Of a stretch of 64,000 nucleotides of DNA, positions 8,749 through 60,514 are shown in pieces. Numbering within the stretch: the first letter of the stretch is position 1; each line of letters opens with the position of its first letter. The stretch covers positions 1 through 64,000 of the forward strand of contig JAFIFG010000057.1 of the NCBI GenBank assembly GCA_020832135.1. Reading direction: 5' to 3'. This DNA comes from Clostridiaceae bacterium. Lineage in GTDB: Bacteria > Bacillota > Clostridia > Peptostreptococcales > Natronincolaceae. The notes under the pieces were generated by a model. It saw only the letters and a list, made by a program, of their open reading frames with translations, had not been told where the DNA came from and searched no databases. Made by a program: the position numbers and the translations under genes.

Positions 8749-9177
8749 ATGAAGGTTAAAGATATCATGACGAATCATGTTTCAGCTGGGAATACAAATT
8801 CTACCATTAATGAGATTGCTACAACTATGAAGGAATTAAATGTAGGTTGTGTTCCTATTTGTGACAATCAAAATAATCTTGTAGGAATCGTTACAGATAG
8901 AGATCTTGTAGTAAGAGGGCTAAGTGATGGTCTGCAGGCATCGGAGAATGTAAACAAAGTTATGTCAAAAGAATTAATTTATATCACACCAGATAGTCAT
9001 GCTCATGAAGCTGCAAGATTAATGGCTCAAAATCAAATTAGAAGATTACCAGTGGTGGAAAATGGTAAATTAGTAGGTGTTGTCTCCATAGGTGACTTAG
9101 CAGTTAGAAATATTTATGTAGATGATGCAGGCAAAGCTTTAAGTGATATATCATTACCTAGTAGACCAATGATGTAA
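8749..9177 (+). CDS. Tandem CBS-domain protein
   Basis: 142 residues made of two CBS motifs (about 1-62 and 68-128): V-K-D-I-M-T, then G-I-V-T-D-R-D-L, then V-M-S-K-E, then G-V-V-S-I-G-D-L-A. CBS pairs bind adenosine nucleotides and usually regulate an attached or partner protein. Stand-alone pairs of this length are common in Clostridia; no partner is evident here. Its AGGAGG lies within the inverted repeat 8694-8744, so translation could depend on how that RNA folds. Confidence 0.85.
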   Translation: MKVKDIMTNHVSAGNTNSTINEIATTMKELNVGCVPICDNQNNLVGIVTDRDLVVRGLSDGLQASENVNKVMSKELIYITPDSHAHEAARLMAQNQIRRLPVVENGKLVGVVSIGDLAVRNIYVDDAGKALSDISLPSRPMM

Positions 9178-9185
9178 TTTTTTTT

Positions 9186-9231
9186 AAAATATAACTATGT
9201 CCTCTTTTAGAGGACATAGTTATATTTTTTT
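9186..9231 (+). terminator. Intrinsic terminator after CBS gene
   Basis: A 19-base arm ending CTATGTCCTC (9186-9204) pairs with GAGGACATAG and onward (9210-9229), 5-base loop, followed by T7. Confidence 0.85.
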
Positions 9232-9301
9232 GTGCAAATTTACTTAATTTAATTAATTGTGAAAAATTGTAGCATTTAGGCGAAAAATTTTCAAAAAATA
9301 A

Positions 9302-9330
9302 TTGACATGAAAACCTTTTCTTGATAAAAT
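9302..9330 (+). promoter_or_regulatory. lac operon promoter
   Basis: Consensus -35 TTGACA (9302-9307), 17-base spacer, -10 TAAAAT (9325-9330). It lies 92 bases before the lacR start and directly upstream of the AAACATT repeats. Confidence 0.8.
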
Positions 9331-9337
9331 CAAAAAC

Positions 9338-9384
9338 AAACATTGTCAAACATTTAAAAACATTACAAAACATTACAAAACATT
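9338..9384 (+). repeat. Five helically phased AAACATT repeats, probable LacR operator
   Basis: AAACATT occurs at 9338, 9348, 9358, 9368 and 9378, exactly 10 bp apart. The array begins 8 bases after the -10 box, covering the likely transcription start. DeoR-family sugar regulators typically bind TGTTT-containing direct repeats (complement AAACA), and the next gene encodes such a regulator. Confidence 0.7.
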
Positions 9385-9421
9385 AAACGACACAATAAAC
9401 CATAAAAAGGGGAGAGTTTCT

Positions 9422-10177
9422 TTGCTTAGAGATGAACGTTTTCAAAAAATATTAGAAATGTTAAAGGAAAATGTAATTATTAGTGTTTCTGAAATTTCTA
9501 AGAGTTTAAACGTTACTGAAATGACCATTAGGAGGGATCTTAAGATTTTGGAAGAGGGAGACCAACTAATCCGTGTTCATGGTGGTGCTAAAAGAAAAGG
9601 TGAAGATACTTTTAAGGAACTATCTCATGATGAAAAGCAACAAATGCATGTGGAGGAGAAAAAAAGTATAGCTAAAATTGCAGCTGGACTTATTGAGGAG
9701 AACGATACAGTTTTTCTTGGCCCTGGAACTACCAATGAAATGATTTATGATTATCTTCAAGTAAACTATGCTAAAATCATCACAAATTCTATTACAGTAT
9801 TTTCCAAGTTTGTTGATGATAAGCGATTTGAGATGATTCTGGTTGGTGGAAAACTCAGAAGTAGAACCGGCGCATTCGTAGGGAACTTTGCTAACGATAT
9901 GCTTAAAAAAATTAGAGTGAAAAAAGCTTTCATTGGAACCAATGGAATTTATGGAGAAAATATAACTACCTTCAATGAGGATGAGGGAGTAGCTCAAAGC
10001 ATTATACTAGACAATGCAGAAGAAAAATATATATTAGCTGATTCTAGTAAGATTGGGAAAACAGATTTCTTTGTTTTTTATAACCTAAATCATATAACAG
10101 CGATTATTACAGATAGTAAAATTAACACAAAATCAAATGAAGAATATAGAAAAATTACAAAGATAATTTTTAAATAA
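9422..10177 (+). CDS. lacR: DeoR-family regulator of the lac operon
   Basis: 251 residues beginning at TTG 9422 behind GGGGAGAG. The N-terminal helix-turn-helix (about 1-57) reads R-F-Q-K-I-L-E-M-L, then V-T-E-M-T-I-R-R-D-L-K-I-L-E, then L-I-R-V-H-G-G-A, the DeoR signature. The C-terminal sugar-phosphate sensor (about 75-235) has G-P-G-T-T, I-T-N-S and G-G-K-L-R-S-R-T-G-A-F-V-G. By family and position it should repress the operon until a phosphosugar, tagatose-6-phosphate in the LacR system of lactococci, binds. It is the first gene of the operon and overlaps its own control region, implying autoregulation. Confidence 0.8.
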   Translation: MLRDERFQKILEMLKENVIISVSEISKSLNVTEMTIRRDLKILEEGDQLIRVHGGAKRKGEDTFKELSHDEKQQMHVEEKKSIAKIAAGLIEENDTVFLGPGTTNEMIYDYLQVNYAKIITNSITVFSKFVDDKRFEMILVGGKLRSRTGAFVGNFANDMLKKIRVKKAFIGTNGIYGENITTFNEDEGVAQSIILDNAEEKYILADSSKIGKTDFFVFYNLNHITAIITDSKINTKSNEEYRKITKIIFK

Positions 10178-10202: not shown

Positions 10203-10634
10203 ATGTCAAAAGTAATTATTGGTGCAGATACAAAAGGCTTTGAACTAAAAGAACATTTGAAAAACTATTTAAAGGAATTAGGTCATGAGGTTATTGACAA
10301 AACTCCAGAAGGAGATTTGGATTTTGTAGAATCCACAAAACTAGTAGCGGAAGCTATTTTAAACAAAGAAGGAGATCGGGGAATTGCCATTGATGAATAT
10401 GGTGCAGGTTCCTTTATGGTAGGGAATAAGCATAAAAATATTATTTGTGCACAAGTATCAGATGAACACTCTTCTAAAATGACAAGGGATCATAACAATG
10501 CCTCTATGATTGCCTTAGGATCTGGTATCGTAGGAAAAAAAGTAGCAGAAAAAATTGTCGAAACTTTTGCAAAAGCTGAATATGCAGGAGGAAGACATCA
10601 AATAAGAATAGATATGTTAAATAAAATGTGCTAA
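10203..10634 (+). CDS. lacA: Galactose-6-phosphate isomerase subunit LacA
   Basis: 143 residues of the RpiB/LacAB fold. With LacB it converts galactose-6-phosphate to tagatose-6-phosphate. Seen: I-I-G-A-D-T-K-G-F-E-L-K at the N-terminus and R-D-H-N-N-A-S-M-I-A-L-G-S-G toward the end. The catalytic Cys motif of RpiB/LacB (I-C-G-T-G) is replaced by D-E-Y-G-A-G, as is normal for the LacA subunit. Starts 25 bases after lacR with AGGGAGGA upstream. Confidence 0.92.
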   Translation: MSKVIIGADTKGFELKEHLKNYLKELGHEVIDKTPEGDLDFVESTKLVAEAILNKEGDRGIAIDEYGAGSFMVGNKHKNIICAQVSDEHSSKMTRDHNNASMIALGSGIVGKKVAEKIVETFAKAEYAGGRHQIRIDMLNKMC

Positions 10635-10662: not shown

Positions 10663-11181
10663 ATGAAAATTTCAATTGGATGCGATCATATTGTCACTGA
10701 TATAAAGAATCATATAGGAAAATATCTTGAGAGCAAAGGTCATGAAGTAATAGATAATGGAACCTATGATCATGAACGTACACATTATCCTATATATGGT
10801 AAAAAGACGGCGGCGAAGGTTGTAAATAAGGAAGCAGATCTAGGTATTGTTATATGTGGAACTGGAGTAGGAATTACAACCAGTGCTACTAAAATCAAAG
10901 GAATCCGTGCCACACTAGTAAGGGACGTGGAGACAGTAAGATATGCAAGAGAAGAACTTAATGTTAATGTAATTGGTATTGGGGGAAGAATTTGTGGTGT
11001 AGGTTTAATTGAAAATATTATTGATGTTTTTTTAGAAACAAAATATAAAGAGACACCTGAAAATAAAGCTCTAATAGAAAAAATTGATGCAATGATAGAA
11101 GACAATGAACAAGCTAATGATGAAACCATGTTTGATGAGTTCATAGAAAAATGGAATAATGGTGGGTATCCAGCAGAATAG
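10663..11181 (+). CDS. lacB: Galactose-6-phosphate isomerase subunit LacB
   Basis: 172 residues, the usual LacB length. Seen: I-S-I-G-C-D-H-I-V-T, I-V-I-C-G-T-G-V-G-I-T with the catalytic Cys, and V-N-V-I-G-I-G-G-R. Forms the heteromeric isomerase with LacA, contributing most active-site residues. 28 bases downstream of lacA with its own AAGGAGG. Confidence 0.93.
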   Translation: MKISIGCDHIVTDIKNHIGKYLESKGHEVIDNGTYDHERTHYPIYGKKTAAKVVNKEADLGIVICGTGVGITTSATKIKGIRATLVRDVETVRYAREELNVNVIGIGGRICGVGLIENIIDVFLETKYKETPENKALIEKIDAMIEDNEQANDETMFDEFIEKWNNGGYPAE

Positions 11182-11198: not shown

Positions 11199-11516
11199 AT
11201 GAACAGAGAAGAAGTTGCAATGATAGGATTCGAAATAATTGCTCATGTAGGGGATGGAAGATCTAAACTAATTACAGCATTAGACGAGTGCAATAAAGGG
11301 AACTTTGAAGAAGCTGAGAAACTTATGAAGGAAGCCAATGAATGCATCACGGAGGCACATAAATCTCAAACTGAAATGCTTCAAGCAGAAGCACGAGGTG
11401 AGGAAGCTGAATTAGGATTTATTATGGTACATGCTCAAGATCATTTAATGACTACAATGTTGCTTCGTGATGTAATGAAGCATATGGTAAATTTGTATAA
11501 AAAAGTAGATAAGTAG
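11199..11516 (+). CDS. lacF: PTS lactose-specific EIIA component
   Basis: 105 residues, all-helical EIIA of the lactose/cellobiose family. The phosphorylated His is H78 in M-V-H-A-Q-D-H-L-M-T, identical in number to the family's known site. It passes phosphate from HPr to the EIIB Cys of LacE. 17 bases after lacB with GGGAGG. Confidence 0.93.
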   Translation: MNREEVAMIGFEIIAHVGDGRSKLITALDECNKGNFEEAEKLMKEANECITEAHKSQTEMLQAEARGEEAELGFIMVHAQDHLMTTMLLRDVMKHMVNLYKKVDK

Positions 11517-11556: not shown

Positions 11557-13242
11557 ATGGAAGCATTGATTAAAAAAATAGAACAAATGAAACCGTTTTT
11601 TGAAAAATTCACCAACAACCCATATTTAAGAGCGATTCGTGATGGATTTATCAGTTTGATTCCAGTAATACTATTTTCAAGTATTTTCTTACTAGTAGCA
11701 TTTGTACCTAATATATTTGGGTTTTATTGGTCTGGTGGAGTTATGGATACCTTACTAAAGGCATATAGCTATTCTATGGGGATTGTTGGTATGTTAATGG
11801 CTGCTACCATCGCCAAGAGTTTAACAGACACCTTTAATGGTCAGCTACCAAAAACTAGACAGATTAACTCCATATCTACTATGGTGGTTGCTATTATTGC
11901 TTTTCTTTTGATAGCAGTAGAGGGTGTAGAAGGTGGCATTTCTACGGGATTCATGGGGACAAGAGGGTTGCTTTCAGCCTTTGTAGTAGGTTTTATTGTT
12001 CCTAATATTTATAAATTCTGTGTTAAAAACAATATAACCATCAAAATGCCAGAGGAAGTTCCTAGCAATATTTCCCAAACCTTTGCAGATTTGATTCCAT
12101 TAGCATTATCTATATTGTTCTTCTGGGTATTTGACATTGTATTTGTGAGTATATTTGCTACACCATTTAGTGCTTGGATATTGGAGATATTCAAACCGCT
12201 ATTTACTGCTGCAGACAGCTACTTAGGACTAGCTCTTATCTTTGGTGCTATGGCTTTCTTCTGGTTTGTAGGTATTCATGGTCCTTCGATTGTTGAACCA
12301 GCAGTTGCAGCTATTTATATTACGAATGTTGAAGCAAACTTAATGGCTTATCAAGCTGGTGAACATGCTTCCAATGTTCTTTCTCAAGGATCTCAGTATT
12401 TCGTTGCTACATTAGGTGGTACTGGGGCAACATTGGTAATTACTTTCATGTGTGCATTTATGGCTAGATCGAAGCAACTTAAAGCGGTAGGAAAGGCATC
12501 AAGTGTTCCTGTAATATTTGGGGTAAATGAACCAGTGCTATTTGGAGCACCAATAGTATTAAATCCAGTGTTCTTCATTCCTTTTATTTTAACTCCAATT
12601 GTAAACGTATGGTTACTAAGATTCTTTATTACAGGACTAGGGATGGATGGTTTTATCTATAACTTACCTTGGACAACTCCAGGACCAATAGGTTTAATTG
12701 TAGGAACAGGTTTTGCTCCATTAGCATTTATATTAATGCCACTATTACTAGTAGTTGACTTTGCAATTTACTACCCCTTCTTGAAGGTTTATGATAGACA
12801 GTTAGTAGAGCAAGAAAAGAAAAATGCTGAAGAAGATAACAAAGTAGAGAAGAAAAAAGAAGTAAAAGAAGTAAAAGAAGTAAAAGAAGTGACGTACAAC
12901 AAGTCAGATAAAAAATTAGCGGTATTAGTAGTTTGTGCCAATGGAGCTACCAGTGGTATGCTAGCAAAGGCAATAGAAAAAGGTGCAAAAGAAAAGGGTG
13001 TTGATTTGGAATCAACAGCTATGGCTTACGGTCAGCATAAGGATGTTATAGCAGATTTTGATTTAATTATCCTAGCACCACAAATGGCATCTATGTTGGA
13101 AGAATTAAAGGAAGATTGTAGTAATAAGGGTACGAAAGCTACCTCGACAAGTGGGAAAGAATATGTTTCCCTTGCAAGAAATCCTGTTGGTGCATTAGAT
13201 TTTGCTTTGTCAAAAATTACTTTGTCAAAAATTGAAGAATAA
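11557..13242 (+). CDS. lacE: PTS lactose-specific EIICB component
   Basis: 561 residues. The EIIC membrane domain (about 1-425, eight to ten hydrophobic segments, with G-I-H-G-P-S-I-V-E-P and V-N-E-P-V-L-F-G-A-P) transports lactose; the EIIB domain (about 450-555) carries the phosphorylated Cys460 in V-V-C-A-N-G-A-T-S-G. The linker contains a K-E-V repeat encoded by a 9-base tandem repeat. The product is cytoplasmic lactose-6-phosphate. Cellobiose-type specificity is possible from the family alone, but lacAB/lacG context supports lactose. Confidence 0.92.
   Translation: MEALIKKIEQMKPFFEKFTNNPYLRAIRDGFISLIPVILFSSIFLLVAFVPNIFGFYWSGGVMDTLLKAYSYSMGIVGMLMAATIAKSLTDTFNGQLPKTRQINSISTMVVAIIAFLLIAVEGVEGGISTGFMGTRGLLSAFVVGFIVPNIYKFCVKNNITIKMPEEVPSNISQTFADLIPLALSILFFWVFDIVFVSIFATPFSAWILEIFKPLFTAADSYLGLALIFGAMAFFWFVGIHGPSIVEPAVAAIYITNVEANLMAYQAGEHASNVLSQGSQYFVATLGGTGATLVITFMCAFMARSKQLKAVGKASSVPVIFGVNEPVLFGAPIVLNPVFFIPFILTPIVNVWLLRFFITGLGMDGFIYNLPWTTPGPIGLIVGTGFAPLAFILMPLLLVVDFAIYYPFLKVYDRQLVEQEKKNAEEDNKVEKKKEVKEVKEVKEVTYNKSDKKLAVLVVCANGATSGMLAKAIEKGAKEKGVDLESTAMAYGQHKDVIADFDLIILAPQMASMLEELKEDCSNKGTKATSTSGKEYVSLARNPVGALDFALSKITLSKIEE
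12859..12891 (+). repeat. 9-base tandem repeat in the lacE linker
   Basis: GAAGTAAAA occurs three times in a row and a fourth copy starts (12859-12891), giving K-E-V repeated between the EIIC and EIIB domains. In-frame, so only linker length would vary. Confidence 0.7.
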
Positions 13243-13280
13243 AGTAATTTGTTAGAAAAAAAGACTTGGAGGGTTTTAGC

Positions 13281-14708
13281 ATGAAACACTTTGATGATAA
13301 ATTTGTATTTGGGGCAGCTACGGCTGCCTTTCAAGCAGAAGGCGCAACAAAAGAAGACGGTAGAGGACCATGCTATTGGGATGAATATCTAAGTCGTCCT
13401 GAAAGTAGGTTTACTGGGGATGTAGCTAGTGACTTCTATCATAAATATAAAGAGGATTTAAGCCTTGCTAAAGAATATGGTCTAAATGGCATTCGTATTT
13501 CTATCGCTTGGTCAAGGGTGATCCCTGATGGATCTGGAGAAATAAATCCAAAAGGAATAGAGTTCTATAATAACCTTATTGATGAATGCATTAAAAATGG
13601 TGTTGAACCCTATGTGACATTACATCATTTTGATACGCCACTGCCATTATATAAAAATGGAGATTGGTTAGATAGAGATAATATAGATCATTTTGTACGA
13701 TTTGCTAAAGTTTGTTTCGAAAATTTTGGAGATCGTGTTAAAAAATGGGTCAGTATCAATGAGCCTTGGTCTGTAGTGGCGGGACAATATATTATAGGAC
13801 ACTTCCCACCAAACATAAAATATGACATTCCAAAGGCAGTTCAAGCTATGCACAATATGATGGTGGCACATGCGAAAGTAGTAGAACTTTATAAGTCTAT
13901 GAATCTAGATGGAGAAGTTGGTGTAATCCACATTTTAGAATCTAAATATCCCATTACTGAAGAGAAGTTAGATGAAAAAGCAGCTTACCTTGAAGATACG
14001 ATTGCAAATACATTTATGCTAGATGCTTGTTTATCAGGAGAATATAGTGAAGATACTTTAGCCACTATAAAAGACATTGTTAAAAAGAACGATGGTGAAC
14101 TAGTGATTTATGAGGGAGATATGAAAGTCATTAAATCAGCAGCTGAAAAAAATGACTTTTTAGGTGTGAATTACTATGCCAGTCATTTCTTAGCTCATCA
14201 CGATGGAGATAGTGGTATTCATCATAATGGGACTGGTGAAAAGGGAAGTAGTGTATTTGCTCTAAAGGGTATAGGACAAAGAGTAACAAACCCTGATGTA
14301 CCAACTACTGATTGGGATTGGCCAATATACCCTCAAGGCTTATATGATATGTTAGTAAGAGTTAAACATAATTATCCTAACTATAAAAAAATCTATGTAA
14401 CGGAAAATGGTATGGGTTACAAGGATGATTTTCAAGATGGAAAAATAGATGATACTGCTCGAATTGATTATATAAAGCAACACATGGAGGCTATTTTAAA
14501 AGCTATTCAAGATGGGGTAGATGTACAGGGATACTTCCTATGGTCTTTAATGGATGTACTATCTTGGACAAATGGATACAACAAACGCTATGGATTGTTT
14601 TATATAGACTTTGATACACAAAAAAGATATGTGAAGAAAAGTGCCCATTGGATGAAACAGGTAGCAGAAACAAAGACATTAGTTAATCCAGAAGAAATAG
14701 ACTATTAA
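13281..14708 (+). CDS. lacG: 6-phospho-beta-galactosidase
   Basis: 475 residues from ATG 13281; GGAGG (13268-13272) fixes this start over the longer frame at 13266. GH1 fold: acid/base E161 in S-I-N-E-P-W and nucleophile E375 in V-T-E-N-G-M-G. Hydrolyses lactose-6-phosphate to glucose and galactose-6-phosphate in the cytoplasm. Phosphosugar specificity is inferred from the operon and from the overall LacG likeness (F-G-A-A-T-A-A-F-Q-A-E-G). Confidence 0.92.
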   Translation: MKHFDDKFVFGAATAAFQAEGATKEDGRGPCYWDEYLSRPESRFTGDVASDFYHKYKEDLSLAKEYGLNGIRISIAWSRVIPDGSGEINPKGIEFYNNLIDECIKNGVEPYVTLHHFDTPLPLYKNGDWLDRDNIDHFVRFAKVCFENFGDRVKKWVSINEPWSVVAGQYIIGHFPPNIKYDIPKAVQAMHNMMVAHAKVVELYKSMNLDGEVGVIHILESKYPITEEKLDEKAAYLEDTIANTFMLDACLSGEYSEDTLATIKDIVKKNDGELVIYEGDMKVIKSAAEKNDFLGVNYYASHFLAHHDGDSGIHHNGTGEKGSSVFALKGIGQRVTNPDVPTTDWDWPIYPQGLYDMLVRVKHNYPNYKKIYVTENGMGYKDDFQDGKIDDTARIDYIKQHMEAILKAIQDGVDVQGYFLWSLMDVLSWTNGYNKRYGLFYIDFDTQKRYVKKSAHWMKQVAETKTLVNPEEIDY

Positions 14709-15572
<864 letters not shown>

Positions 15573-15587: not shown

Positions 15588-16520
15588 ATGATACTAACTA
15601 TTACTTTAAATCCAGCCGTAGATATTAGCTATAGCTTAGAGAGGCTAGCTATAGATGATGTCAACCGTTGTAGTAATGTTATTAAAACCGCTGGTGGCAA
15701 AGGTCTTAATGTCACCCGTGTGATCTCTTTAGTTGGAGAAAATGTATGTGCTACAGGGTTGTTAGGAGGAGCTAATGGACAGTTTATTATCAATAGATTG
15801 TCTAAAGATGAAATAACTAATGATTTTGTAGAGATAAAAGGAGAAACACGAAACTGTATTGCCATACTACATGAAGAAAAACAAACTGAAATACTAGAGG
15901 TAGGTCCAACTATTCTAGCAGAAGAAAAAGAAAGCTTTTTTAAAAAATATGAAGCTTTGTTAGAGCATACAAAAATTGTTGTAGCATCAGGAAGTGCACC
16001 AAAGGACTTAGGTAGTGAGTTTTATGCTAAATTAATTGATATAACTAATCAGCATAATAAAAAATTCTTACTAGATACTAGTGGTGAGGCTTTAGTTAAA
16101 GCCTTACCTGCTAAACCCTATTTAATTAAACCTAATAAAGATGAACTTTCACAATTATTAAAGCGAGAAATAAAGGATGAAAATACTGTAATAGATGCTT
16201 TAGAAGAAATGGTTAAGTATGACATTCCATATATTATTGTTTCTTTAGGGGCAGAGGGTGCTATAGCATTAGTTGATGGCTCCATATACAAGGTGTCCAT
16301 TCCTAAGATCGAAGCGGTTAATCCTGTAGGATCTGGGGATGCCACTATGGCAGGATTTGCTATAGCCTTAAAAAATAAATTTGAAACTAAAGAACTGCTG
16401 AAATATGGTTGTGTTTTAGGGACGTTAAATGCTCTTGAAGAACAAACAGGGTATGTTAACTGTAAGCATGTTGAAGAGTTTATGGGAAAAACTACTATAG
16501 AACTTATAAAGAATTTATAG
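15588..16520 (+). CDS. lacC: Tagatose-6-phosphate kinase (PfkB family)
   Basis: 310 residues of the LacC/FruK branch of PfkB sugar kinases: N-terminal I-L-T-I-T-L-N-P-A-V-D, the G-G-K-G-L-N-V-T-R box, and C-terminal G-S-G-D-A-T-M-A-G with the catalytic Asp. Phosphorylates tagatose-6-phosphate at C1. 1-phosphofructokinase is the close alternative; operon context favours LacC. Confidence 0.88.
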   Translation: MILTITLNPAVDISYSLERLAIDDVNRCSNVIKTAGGKGLNVTRVISLVGENVCATGLLGGANGQFIINRLSKDEITNDFVEIKGETRNCIAILHEEKQTEILEVGPTILAEEKESFFKKYEALLEHTKIVVASGSAPKDLGSEFYAKLIDITNQHNKKFLLDTSGEALVKALPAKPYLIKPNKDELSQLLKREIKDENTVIDALEEMVKYDIPYIIVSLGAEGAIALVDGSIYKVSIPKIEAVNPVGSGDATMAGFAIALKNKFETKELLKYGCVLGTLNALEEQTGYVNCKHVEEFMGKTTIELIKNL

Positions 16521-57876: not shown

Positions 57877-58291
57877 ATGTAGATTTATTTTTAAGTGGTA
57901 AAGGTAATTTAAAGCGATATTATTCAAATATTTATAAAAATTTTAAAATATAGAGTAACTTCACAAAACTAGCCTAATTGAGACTTTATAATTTTGTATA
58001 AAATTAATAAAAATATCTATAAAAAAAGGGTTATGTAATGTTAAATAGAATTAATATTTATAATATATACAAAATAATATAATTATTAAAATATTTTTGC
58101 ATATACCAAAAGAAAGGAGGTAAAAGCAAAAAAAATAAGAAAGGGAGGGAGGCTTTTAAAATTTAGTTTATATGAGATTAGAAATGTATCAACTATGTAC
58201 TAAAAAACTATGCATTATAAGTAATTAGTAGTATCATTTGAAGTTGTGTTTTTCGGCGATTGATAAATTTTTCAAAGGGGGAAATGTTTAC
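57877..58291. other. Long AT-rich leader before the second nucleotidase
   Basis: 415 bases with no gene longer than about 18 codons. A strong AGGAGG at about 58115 and a GGGAGGGAGG at about 58143 lack a usable start codon. A TATAAT-like stretch occurs near 58060. No riboswitch fold was recognised. Confidence 0.4.
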
Positions 58292-60514
58292 ATGATGAAG
58301 TACACTGGGAAAAAATTAAATAGCAAACTAATTAGTACCATACTTACATTAGTATTGATACTAACATCATTTTCTTTTGTATTTGGGGGAGTAGAGTCAG
58401 AGACTGTTGTAGATTTTGATACAACCACGACTAATGAGACAGTTGCTTTAGATGAGAGAGCAGAAGGAACTCATGAACTTGTCATTATGGGAACAACAGA
58501 TATTCATGTAAATATTATGCCATATAATTACATGAACGATAGAGTTGATGAAAGGTATGGAATATCTAAAGTGGCAACATTAGTTGACCAAATAAGAGCA
58601 CAACATGCAAATACACTGTTACTTGATGCAGGAGATATGATTCAAGGAAGTTTACTAGGAAATATAGAAGCAGTGGTGGATCCACTTAAAGATGATGAAG
58701 TACATGTATCTATTGCTTCTATGAATATGATGGAGTATGATGCAGCAGTTTATGGAAACCATGAGTTTAATTTTGGTTTGGACTTCTTAGATCGTGCCTA
58801 TAGAGACGCTAACTTCCCAGTATTAAATGCTAATGTTTACAAAGCTGGTACAGATGAAAACTACTTTACACCTTATGTGATTTTAGATCGTGAAATAGAT
58901 GGTGAGGAAATAAAAGTAGGAATCATTGGTTTTACACCACCACAAATTATGATATGGGACAAATTGCATTTAGATGGGAAAGTTGAAACAAAAGAAATTG
59001 TAGAAACAGCAGAAAGATTTGTACCAGAAATGAAAGAAGCTGGTGCAGACATTATCATAGCTGTAGCCCATACAGGAATTGATGCAAATGAAGGAGCCAG
59101 TGAAAATGCAGCATACTTCTTAAGTCAAGTAGAAGGCATTGATGCTATGGTACTAGGACATCAACATAGAAGATTCCCAAGTGAAGATTATAAAGATATA
59201 CCAGGAGTAGATATTAACAAAGGAACAATTCATGGAGTACCTACAATTATGGCAGGGTCTTGGGGAAATAACTTAGGAACAATCGCTTTAGAGCTTACCT
59301 ATGAAGATGGAGTATGGTTAATCGTAGATAGCCAATCTGAATTAACAGTAACAGAAGAAGTATCACCAAGACAAGATATAGTTGACTTCGCAAAAGAAAA
59401 ACATGAGCAAACAATTACATATGTAAACACACCAGTTGGAGAAACATTTACACACTTAAATACATTCTTCTCCAGAGTAATGGATAACAAGGCAGTACAA
59501 TTGGTAAATGATGCACAATTATGGTTTGCAGATGGATTTTTTGCAGGAACAGAATATGAGGATCTTCCAGTACTTTCAGCAGCAGCACCATTTAAAGCAG
59601 GACGTCATGGAGCAGACTATTATACAAACGTAGAAGTTGGTGGTATAGCAGTTAAGGATGTTGCGGAGCTTTATATTTATGACAATACATTGCAAATTGT
59701 TAAGGTAAATACAGCTGAATTAATGGGATGGTTGGAGAAATCAGCAGAAAACTTTAACCAAATAGACCCAGCTAAGACAGAAGATCAAGTATTGTTAGAT
59801 TATAATTTCAGAGGTTTCAATTTTGACCACATAGCAGGAATTGAGTATCAAATTGACGTAACAAAACCAGCAGGTGAGAGAATCGTAAATGCTACCTATA
59901 ATGGAGAACCATTAACAAAAGATATGGAATTTGTAGTAGTAACAAATAACTACCGTGCCTCAGGTGGAGGAGATCATTTAGCAAATGCAGAAGTTATTTA
60001 CTCGGGCACAGAAGTAAATCGTGAAGTACTCATTGATTATATTACAGAAATGGGTGCAGCAGATCCACAAGTAACAAATTATTGGTCAATTCTACCTGTA
60101 GAAATAGCAGGAAGAGTAGTCTTTAGAGGATCACCATTAGGTGAAGAGTATATGGATGATTTTGAGGCAGATAAGGTGAGCTACATAGGTGAAGAAGAAG
60201 ACTGGGGTCTTTATGCTTATAACTTAACTTCAGCAGTTGAAGAGGTAGCTCCGGTTGTTGAGGAACCTAGTCCAGTTATTGAAGAGCCTACTCCAATAAT
60301 TGAAGAACCAGCACCAATTATTGAGGAACCTACTTCCGTCAGTGAAGAAACTGTAACTATTCATATAGTAGTAAAAGGCGATAACCTTTGGAATATCGCT
60401 AGAAAATACTATGGAAGTGGAGTAGAATTTGGCAGAATATTTGAAGTAAATAAGACACAACTTACAAGACAAAATTTAATTTATCCGGGTATGGAATTGA
60501 TTATTCCACAATAA
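58292..60514 (+). CDS. Secreted 2',3'-cyclic-nucleotide phosphodiesterase/5'-nucleotidase with LysM anchor
   Basis: 740 residues from ATG 58292 (GGGGG 10 bases upstream; the upstream ATG 58238 has no ribosome site). Signal peptide, then metallophosphoesterase (T-T-D-I-H-V-N-I, D-A-G-D-M-I-Q-G-S, Y-G-N-H-E-F-N-F-G, L-G-H-Q-H), then nucleotidase C-domain with R-A-S-G-G-G-D-H, then a P-x-I-E-E-P repeat linker and one LysM motif. The T-D-I-H-x-N form is typical of the CpdB branch acting on 2',3'-cyclic nucleotides. Paralogue of 54938-56710. Confidence 0.9.
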   Translation: MMKYTGKKLNSKLISTILTLVLILTSFSFVFGGVESETVVDFDTTTTNETVALDERAEGTHELVIMGTTDIHVNIMPYNYMNDRVDERYGISKVATLVDQIRAQHANTLLLDAGDMIQGSLLGNIEAVVDPLKDDEVHVSIASMNMMEYDAAVYGNHEFNFGLDFLDRAYRDANFPVLNANVYKAGTDENYFTPYVILDREIDGEEIKVGIIGFTPPQIMIWDKLHLDGKVETKEIVETAERFVPEMKEAGADIIIAVAHTGIDANEGASENAAYFLSQVEGIDAMVLGHQHRRFPSEDYKDIPGVDINKGTIHGVPTIMAGSWGNNLGTIALELTYEDGVWLIVDSQSELTVTEEVSPRQDIVDFAKEKHEQTITYVNTPVGETFTHLNTFFSRVMDNKAVQLVNDAQLWFADGFFAGTEYEDLPVLSAAAPFKAGRHGADYYTNVEVGGIAVKDVAELYIYDNTLQIVKVNTAELMGWLEKSAENFNQIDPAKTEDQVLLDYNFRGFNFDHIAGIEYQIDVTKPAGERIVNATYNGEPLTKDMEFVVVTNNYRASGGGDHLANAEVIYSGTEVNREVLIDYITEMGAADPQVTNYWSILPVEIAGRVVFRGSPLGEEYMDDFEADKVSYIGEEEDWGLYAYNLTSAVEEVAPVVEEPSPVIEEPTPIIEEPAPIIEEPTSVSEETVTIHIVVKGDNLWNIARKYYGSGVEFGRIFEVNKTQLTRQNLIYPGMELIIPQ
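60240..60345 (+). repeat. Degenerate repeat coding for an E-E-P linker
   Basis: About five copies of an 18-24 base unit encoding P-x-I-E-E-P/V-V-E-E-P between catalytic and LysM domains. Confidence 0.6.

Follow-up and report, generated by a model that had tools for sequence, protein, structure and literature searches.

Five AACA-type direct repeats at 10-bp spacing before a clostridial lacR gene: a very probable operator of the adjacent DeoR-type regulator

The start region of a lac operon in a Clostridiaceae bacterium carries five identical AAACATT heptamers in exact 10-bp steps, and we hold with considerable confidence that they form the operator at which LacR regulates its own operon, lacR-lacA-lacB-lacF-lacE-lacG-gatY-lacC. 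Judged from sequence, the array is another case of a tandem 10-bp layout that is already known, here with a LacR-type core; it is in all likelihood functional, and its kind is ordinary. The more interesting part is a broader pattern, in which period-10 arrays recur before DeoR-type regulator genes and their core word appears to follow a single residue of the regulator's recognition helix. The window referred to below is the whole stretch of DNA analysed, positions 1 to 64,000 of contig JAFIFG010000057.1.

The array, its promoter and the lac operon

The initial annotation had described five AAACATT copies in 10-bp steps, placed just after a -10 box and on one face of the helix, and this description is borne out: all five lie on the forward strand, the first begins at 9338, 8 bp past the last base of the TAAAAT hexamer at 9325-9330, and the common helix face follows from the 10-bp spacing. 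The -35 and -10 hexamers match 11 of 12 consensus bases in the scan, and the array would span the start region, from about +1 to +47. The TTG start codon of lacR follows at 9422, downstream of both the array and a sequence resembling a ribosome-binding site. The features of the locus are as follows.

9302-9307, forward strand: -35 hexamer TTGACA (promoter scan, consensus match only)
9325-9330, forward strand: -10 hexamer TAAAAT, 17-bp spacer from the -35 (promoter scan)
9338-9344, forward strand: repeat unit 1, AAACATT, then linker GTC (sequence scan)
9348-9354, forward strand: repeat unit 2, AAACATT, then linker TAA (sequence scan)
9358-9364, forward strand: repeat unit 3, AAACATT, then linker ACA (sequence scan)
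9368-9374, forward strand: repeat unit 4, AAACATT, then linker ACA (sequence scan)
9378-9384, forward strand: repeat unit 5, AAACATT, then linker AAA (sequence scan)
9409-9416, forward strand: ribosome-binding-site-like GGGGAGAG (read from the sequence)
9422-10177, forward strand: lacR, DeoR-type repressor, 251 aa, TTG start, predicted recognition helix 33-45 with Met34 (profile search, structure model)
10203-10634, forward strand: lacA, galactose-6-phosphate isomerase subunit (NF006380, above cut-off)
10663-11181, forward strand: lacB, galactose-6-phosphate isomerase subunit (NF006381, above cut-off)
11199-11516, forward strand: lacF, PTS IIA(Lac) (TIGR00823, above cut-off)
11557-13242, forward strand: lacE, PTS IIC-IIB(Lac) (TIGR00394, above cut-off)
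13266-14708, forward strand: lacG, 6-phospho-beta-galactosidase (TIGR01233, above cut-off)
14721-15572, forward strand: GatY-type class II tagatose-bisphosphate aldolase, in place of lacD (TIGR01858, above cut-off)
15588-16520, forward strand: lacC-like kinase of the tagatose-6-phosphate kinase/1-PFK family (TIGR03168, above cut-off; best match NF010033, below its cut-off)

The GatY-type aldolase stands where the compared plasmid lac operons carry an annotated lacD, which is a class I aldolase. Upstream of the promoter, between a CBS-domain gene and lacR, positions 9186-9228 form a perfect inverted repeat (20 bp, 3-nt loop) with a T-run; the repeat resembles a terminator belonging to the preceding gene, and it is absent from the list returned by a terminator scan of the window.

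The DeoRC domain has one match in the 4.0-Mb genome, and this is LacR, encoded directly downstream of the array. The protein scores 170.4 bits against PF00455, over the cut-off, and has the DeoR-type helix-turn-helix, the C-terminal DeoRC domain and, at 251 aa, a length within the 240-260 aa of the family; it is encoded together with lacAB, PTS-Lac and lacG, and the NCBIfam equivalogs match it only below their cut-offs, so that the models supply no subfamily name. The structure model, which was built on six sequences, predicts helices at residues 3-16, 22-29 and 33-45 and gives the linker between the helix-turn-helix and the C-domain (53-66) a pLDDT below 50; the nearest solved structure to the modelled C-domain is E. 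coli DeoR (7l6l). A passage of PMC10991401 assigns D210 and K213 of L. lactis LacR to the inducer response, and a title cited there names all four of K72, K80, D210 and K213. All four are conserved in the window's LacR and likewise in one aligned FruR-like paralogue, and therefore they do not name the ligand.

Taken singly, AAACATT is not enriched in the window (19 copies against 27 expected). Five identical heptamers at any fixed period from 5 to 20 are found in the window only at 9338-9384. In 300 windows simulated with a first-order Markov model, four or five copies never arose, and three arose in 20 of them. The runner-up is a four-copy, 9-bp repeat in lacE at 12855; these perfect repeats, AAAAGAAGT at 12855-12890, translate into a KEV repeat in the stretch that links the IIC domain to the IIB domain. 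A search of the 4.0-Mb assembly for further phased AAACATT arrays, which the initial annotation had suggested, confined AAACATT-N3-AAACATT to 9338-9384 (four overlapping matches; one for the reversed control), while four AACA at 10 bp with at most one mismatch gave four overlapping matches in the array and one elsewhere (reversed control, one). The array is close to unique in the genome.

Recurrence upstream of lacR orthologs

Orthologs of lacR were gathered from genomes and plasmids, with a search of 60 genomes of relatives among which the window's own genus was not represented; near-identical upstream regions were removed by shared 12-mers, as they were before all counts given here, and 28 were left besides the window. 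With AACA counted on either strand and expectations taken from dinucleotide shuffles, these 28 regions hold 36 pairs at 10 bp against 1.07 expected, 17 against 1.07 at 20 bp, nine against 1.07 at 30 bp and six against 0.83 at 40 bp, and none at 9 bp; pairs at distances of 4, 6, 11, 14 and 16 bp are also raised, much less than at 10. When all strand-merged 4-mers were scanned at distance 10, AACA came first (z 31.6). Conservation falls on the AACA word and its exact 10-bp spacing, and because these recur upstream of lacR orthologs and the genome's sole DeoRC match adjoins the array, the proposal that a LacR of DeoR type is the binder is very probably correct.

Conservation is not complete. The longest strict AACA run among the 29 lacR regions is five in one (the window), four in one, three in eight and two in eleven, and eight distinct regions are without a strict pair at 10 bp, including those of the close orthologs L118 (60% identity) and L036 (59%). 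The region immediately before lacR in L036, from Clostridium akagii, is without an array, and at 644-687 of this locus five exact AACA at 10 bp precede a PTS IIA gene that lies upstream of lacR.

An array after a -10, as in the window, was located by the scan in L037, L121 and L039, and L038 and L124 show it on reading. If lacF or a lacF-like gene is transcribed divergently from lacR, its promoter carries an array of its own, with four exact copies in L106 and three in L108, whose lacF-like gene is named by resemblance. Other arrangements were seen among relatives of these loci: in three lacR relatives, two of them Enterococcus plasmid loci (L109 and L115) and the third L138, three TGTT at 10 bp lie over the -35 and the spacer, which is the opposite orientation inside the promoter, and in three lacA upstream regions of Streptococcaceae type (L073, L078 and L092) three AACA or TGTT are spaced at 11 bp, not 10.

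Period-10 arrays and residue 34 across DeoR-type regulators

The wider survey covered 137 DeoR-type regions, made up of the 29 from lacR, 27 from other regulators in the window's order and 81 from another class; the last derive from 100 loci taken in listing order from the listed matches, of which 16 were not located by motif search and were later moved to the held-out set. For an array to be scored, a 4-mer containing C or G had to stand in the upstream region in three or more strict copies at period 10. Such runs are present in 47 of the 137 regions; none of the remaining periods between 5 and 19 exceeds five, and the harmonic of 20 gives 13. Among the 96 held-out regions 24 have such a run, and no other period between 6 and 15 exceeds two. 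Control regions upstream of other genes, taken from the window and the fetched loci and somewhat less AT-rich (GC 0.389 against 0.350), carry a period-10 run in six of 333 cases, and period 10 is not outstanding among them (11 at period 9 and eight at period 12); two of the six (L036 and L091) are AACA arrays in lac loci. Among the 27 non-lacR regions of the window's order, 11 have a period-10 array, and the six with an ATCA/TTCA core all lie near a LacC homologue, a 1-phosphofructokinase-family kinase, which leads us to regard those six regulators as FruR-like. Regulators with Glu at the recognition-helix position had an AACA, ATCA or TTCA array in none of 20 cases and in none of 10 held-out cases, and hence the period-10 layout is not universal in the DeoR family.

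These frequencies overturn one part of the initial annotation, that the array is a denser layout than the usual paired operator, since runs of at least three units at 10 bp are common and five copies are found elsewhere. Five exact copies occur in four of the 46 arrays with at least three (L005, L011, L211 and L222), and with L011, L211, L222 and the C. akagii locus showing the same number, the array is ruled out as exceptional by copy number: it stands at the upper end in number and regularity, and is not unique.

With at least three repeats of one core, exactly 10 bp apart at a DeoR-type promoter, the array belongs with the tandem direct-repeat operators of FruR type. The FruR operator of the fru operon in L. 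lactis was reportedly the subject of Barriere et al. (2005, J Bacteriol 187:3752), and its repeats are said to be needed for regulation. Like the array, that operator consists of adjacent non-palindromic 10-bp direct repeats near the promoter of a PTS operon under DeoR-type regulation, but it has four repeats before a fructose operon where the window has five before a lac operon, and the FruR-like regulators of our survey, beside a 1-PFK homologue, have ATCA/TTCA arrays whereas LacR has AACA. The lacO operator consensus of the lac operons of L. lactis and Staphylococcus contains TGTT/AACA, and these LacR-lacO systems share with the window this content, the operon type and the residues K72, K80, D210 and K213; an E. 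faecalis-type LacR (L112) is 42% identical to the window's LacR and has a two-copy TGTT/AACA run at 10 bp in its own upstream region. Passages in the literature give L. lactis FruR four adjacent 10-bp repeats (PMC10765703) and describe it as potentially binding four repeating non-palindromic sequences (PMC2222622), both with reference to the 2005 study. S. aureus FruR, according to a passage of PMC10765703, lacks the 10-bp motif and binds upstream of the -35, which counts against a uniform picture. E. coli DeoR and other members of the family have palindromic operators in the account of one passage of PMC2222622, so that the nearest solved structure belongs to a protein with a palindromic operator, in contrast to the polar tandem array of the window. 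A tandem-repeat structure like that of the window array is also predicted for the site of AxgR from Caldicellulosiruptor, by prediction only, and this regulator is placed in the DeoR family in one passage of PMC8579813 and in AraC in another; PMC4694137 concerns a GntR-type AgaR and is not relevant to DeoR-type arrays.

The residue before T-x-R-R in LacR is Met34, at the start of predicted helix 33-45. A core array was detected for 46 of the 137 regulators, comprising 17 with Met and AACA, 25 with Ser and ATCA/TTCA and four with Ala and ATCA/TTCA, and thus the core agrees with residue 34 in 46 of 46 arrays; none was detected for 25 Met, 36 Ser and two Ala regulators, with a false-positive rate of the detector of one in 1370 shuffled regions. 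Among the first 70 positions residue 34 is the sole full separator of the AACA and ATCA/TTCA groups, the next best reaching 45 of 46. On a tree with residue 34 masked, however, the core changes twice and the residue twice, both times in concordance (sign test p 0.5), so relatedness alone could explain much of the correlation, and for this reason we do not regard the rule as proven.

The prediction was fixed in writing before a held-out set was examined, for which 249 genomes were searched against 200 planned and the 16 loci missed earlier were added. Its loci comprise 60 chosen by listing order from the listed matches and 26 others, with near-duplicates, sites already used and the contig-end G697 skipped, and some of the genomes had also supplied other loci to the first set. 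The 96 distinct regions yielded 14 arrays, of which 12 agree, one is a tie (L307) and one disagrees (L209, Ser with AACA), giving a Fisher p of 0.014 on the 13 decided; when the 16 added loci are left out, 11 of 11 decided arrays agree. From these sequence comparisons the array core appears to follow recognition-helix residue 34, a relation that is possibly new, no report of it in the DeoR family having been found in the open-licence literature, for which coverage was limited. If confirmed, it would make binding sites predictable for many uncharacterised DeoR-type regulators.

Polarity and position show some order, although the promoter was in each case chosen as the closest match to the array, a choice that biases the distances towards regularity and makes these data descriptive. 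The core lies on the regulator's coding strand in 29 of the 46 arrays and on the opposite strand in 17. A promoter-like match accompanies 26 of the 29 coding-strand arrays, 21 of which begin -2 to +11 bp from the end of the -10 and five 12 or 22 bp before it. Among opposite-strand arrays, 14 of 17 have such a match; in seven the array ends close to the -35 or upstream of it (L014, L096, L211, L244, L251, L264 and L273), three lie over the -35 and spacer (L109, L115 and L138), two are far upstream (L075 and L108, the latter fronting the divergent lacF-like frame) and two are ambiguous (L195 and L214).

Tentatively, and with somewhat more doubt than belief, we propose that many DeoR-type regulators of Bacillota use a polar code, in which one winged helix-turn-helix would read each 4-bp core, head to tail and once per helical turn, along an open-ended strip, residue 34 setting the second base. 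Met34 would specify AACA, and Ser or Ala ATCA/TTCA; many arrays would be fused to the promoter, with sense cores that begin at or just after the -10 and antisense cores that lie at the -35 or upstream of it; and the repressor would form an open-ended, filament-like strip, not a symmetric dimer on a palindrome. Were this so, the array of the window would be a near-ideal five-unit example.

Proposed mechanism and rival explanations

In the mechanism we propose, each AACA core would take up one winged helix-turn-helix domain of a LacR subunit, so that neighbouring domains lie 10 bp apart along a single face of the helix in a common orientation; loading along the five units may be cooperative, as the initial annotation had suggested. 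Bound over about +1 to +47, LacR would block open-complex formation or promoter escape at 9302-9330 and so repress its own gene and the whole operon, whose eight genes presumably form one transcript, until a sugar phosphate of the pathway, probably tagatose-6-phosphate, released it. Linker 53-66, if flexible as the model hints, might let a symmetric LacR oligomer turn its helix-turn-helix domains one way along direct repeats. Repression by occlusion, of the promoter or of the start region, agrees with where the array lies, with the presence of a single regulator and with the autoregulatory order of the genes. By itself the array would be a clean LacR operator of known layout and a useful, simple test object, as its five identical, evenly spaced units lend themselves to two questions: the number of repressor domains required, and the ability of a symmetric oligomer to occupy a polar array.

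That the repeats are a tandem duplication produced by slippage, with no regulatory role, we consider quite improbable. Units 2-5 do form a near-perfect array of 10-mers (TRF 9348-9385, period 10, 92% matches), as expected of recent duplication, and duplication of units may well be how the array grew; but the same spacing and AACA core recur with different linkers at diverged lacR orthologs, the array adjoins the only DeoRC match of the genome, and the six linker differences from ACA all fall outside the heptamer, a post hoc observation given that the heptamer was picked as invariant. Marginally less probable still is that AACA is merely a part of phased A-tracts whose role is to bend the promoter DNA. 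The window does contain runs of A spaced by about 10 bp, and AAAA ranks third among words in the orthologs at distances 20 (z 5.3) and 11 (z 2.9), but at distance 10, where AACA leads, it is outside the eight top-scoring words, and several units read GAACA or GCAACA (L038, L121 and L124); we reject curvature on the ranking at 10 bp, the third place at 20 notwithstanding.

Least probable of all is an RNA element in the 5' leader: the array would indeed be transcribed, but the structure of the leader is no better than that of shuffles (z 0.46), 9100-9500 has no Rfam match at the gathering threshold, and in the three lacR relatives with TGTT over the -35 and spacer the array would lie outside the leader RNA; the first two results led us to reject it. 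The array might instead serve another transcription factor, with its gene elsewhere, given that LacR and the array are linked only by genome position and comparative data; we rate this as improbable as slippage, since in genome after genome period-10 arrays accompany DeoR-type genes, and the core goes with the recognition-helix residue of the DeoR protein encoded beside it. Binding by LacR remains our preferred reading.

Two minor observations concern other sequences in the window. The spacer between -35 and -10 contains TGAAAACCTTTTCT, which was considered as a CcpA cre site and is without the central CG of the cre consensus; genome-wide, a cre-like pattern has 39 matches against 75 for the reversed control. 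Within a long reading frame at 58232-60511, 3.6 copies of a 21-bp tandem repeat occupy 60258-60332.
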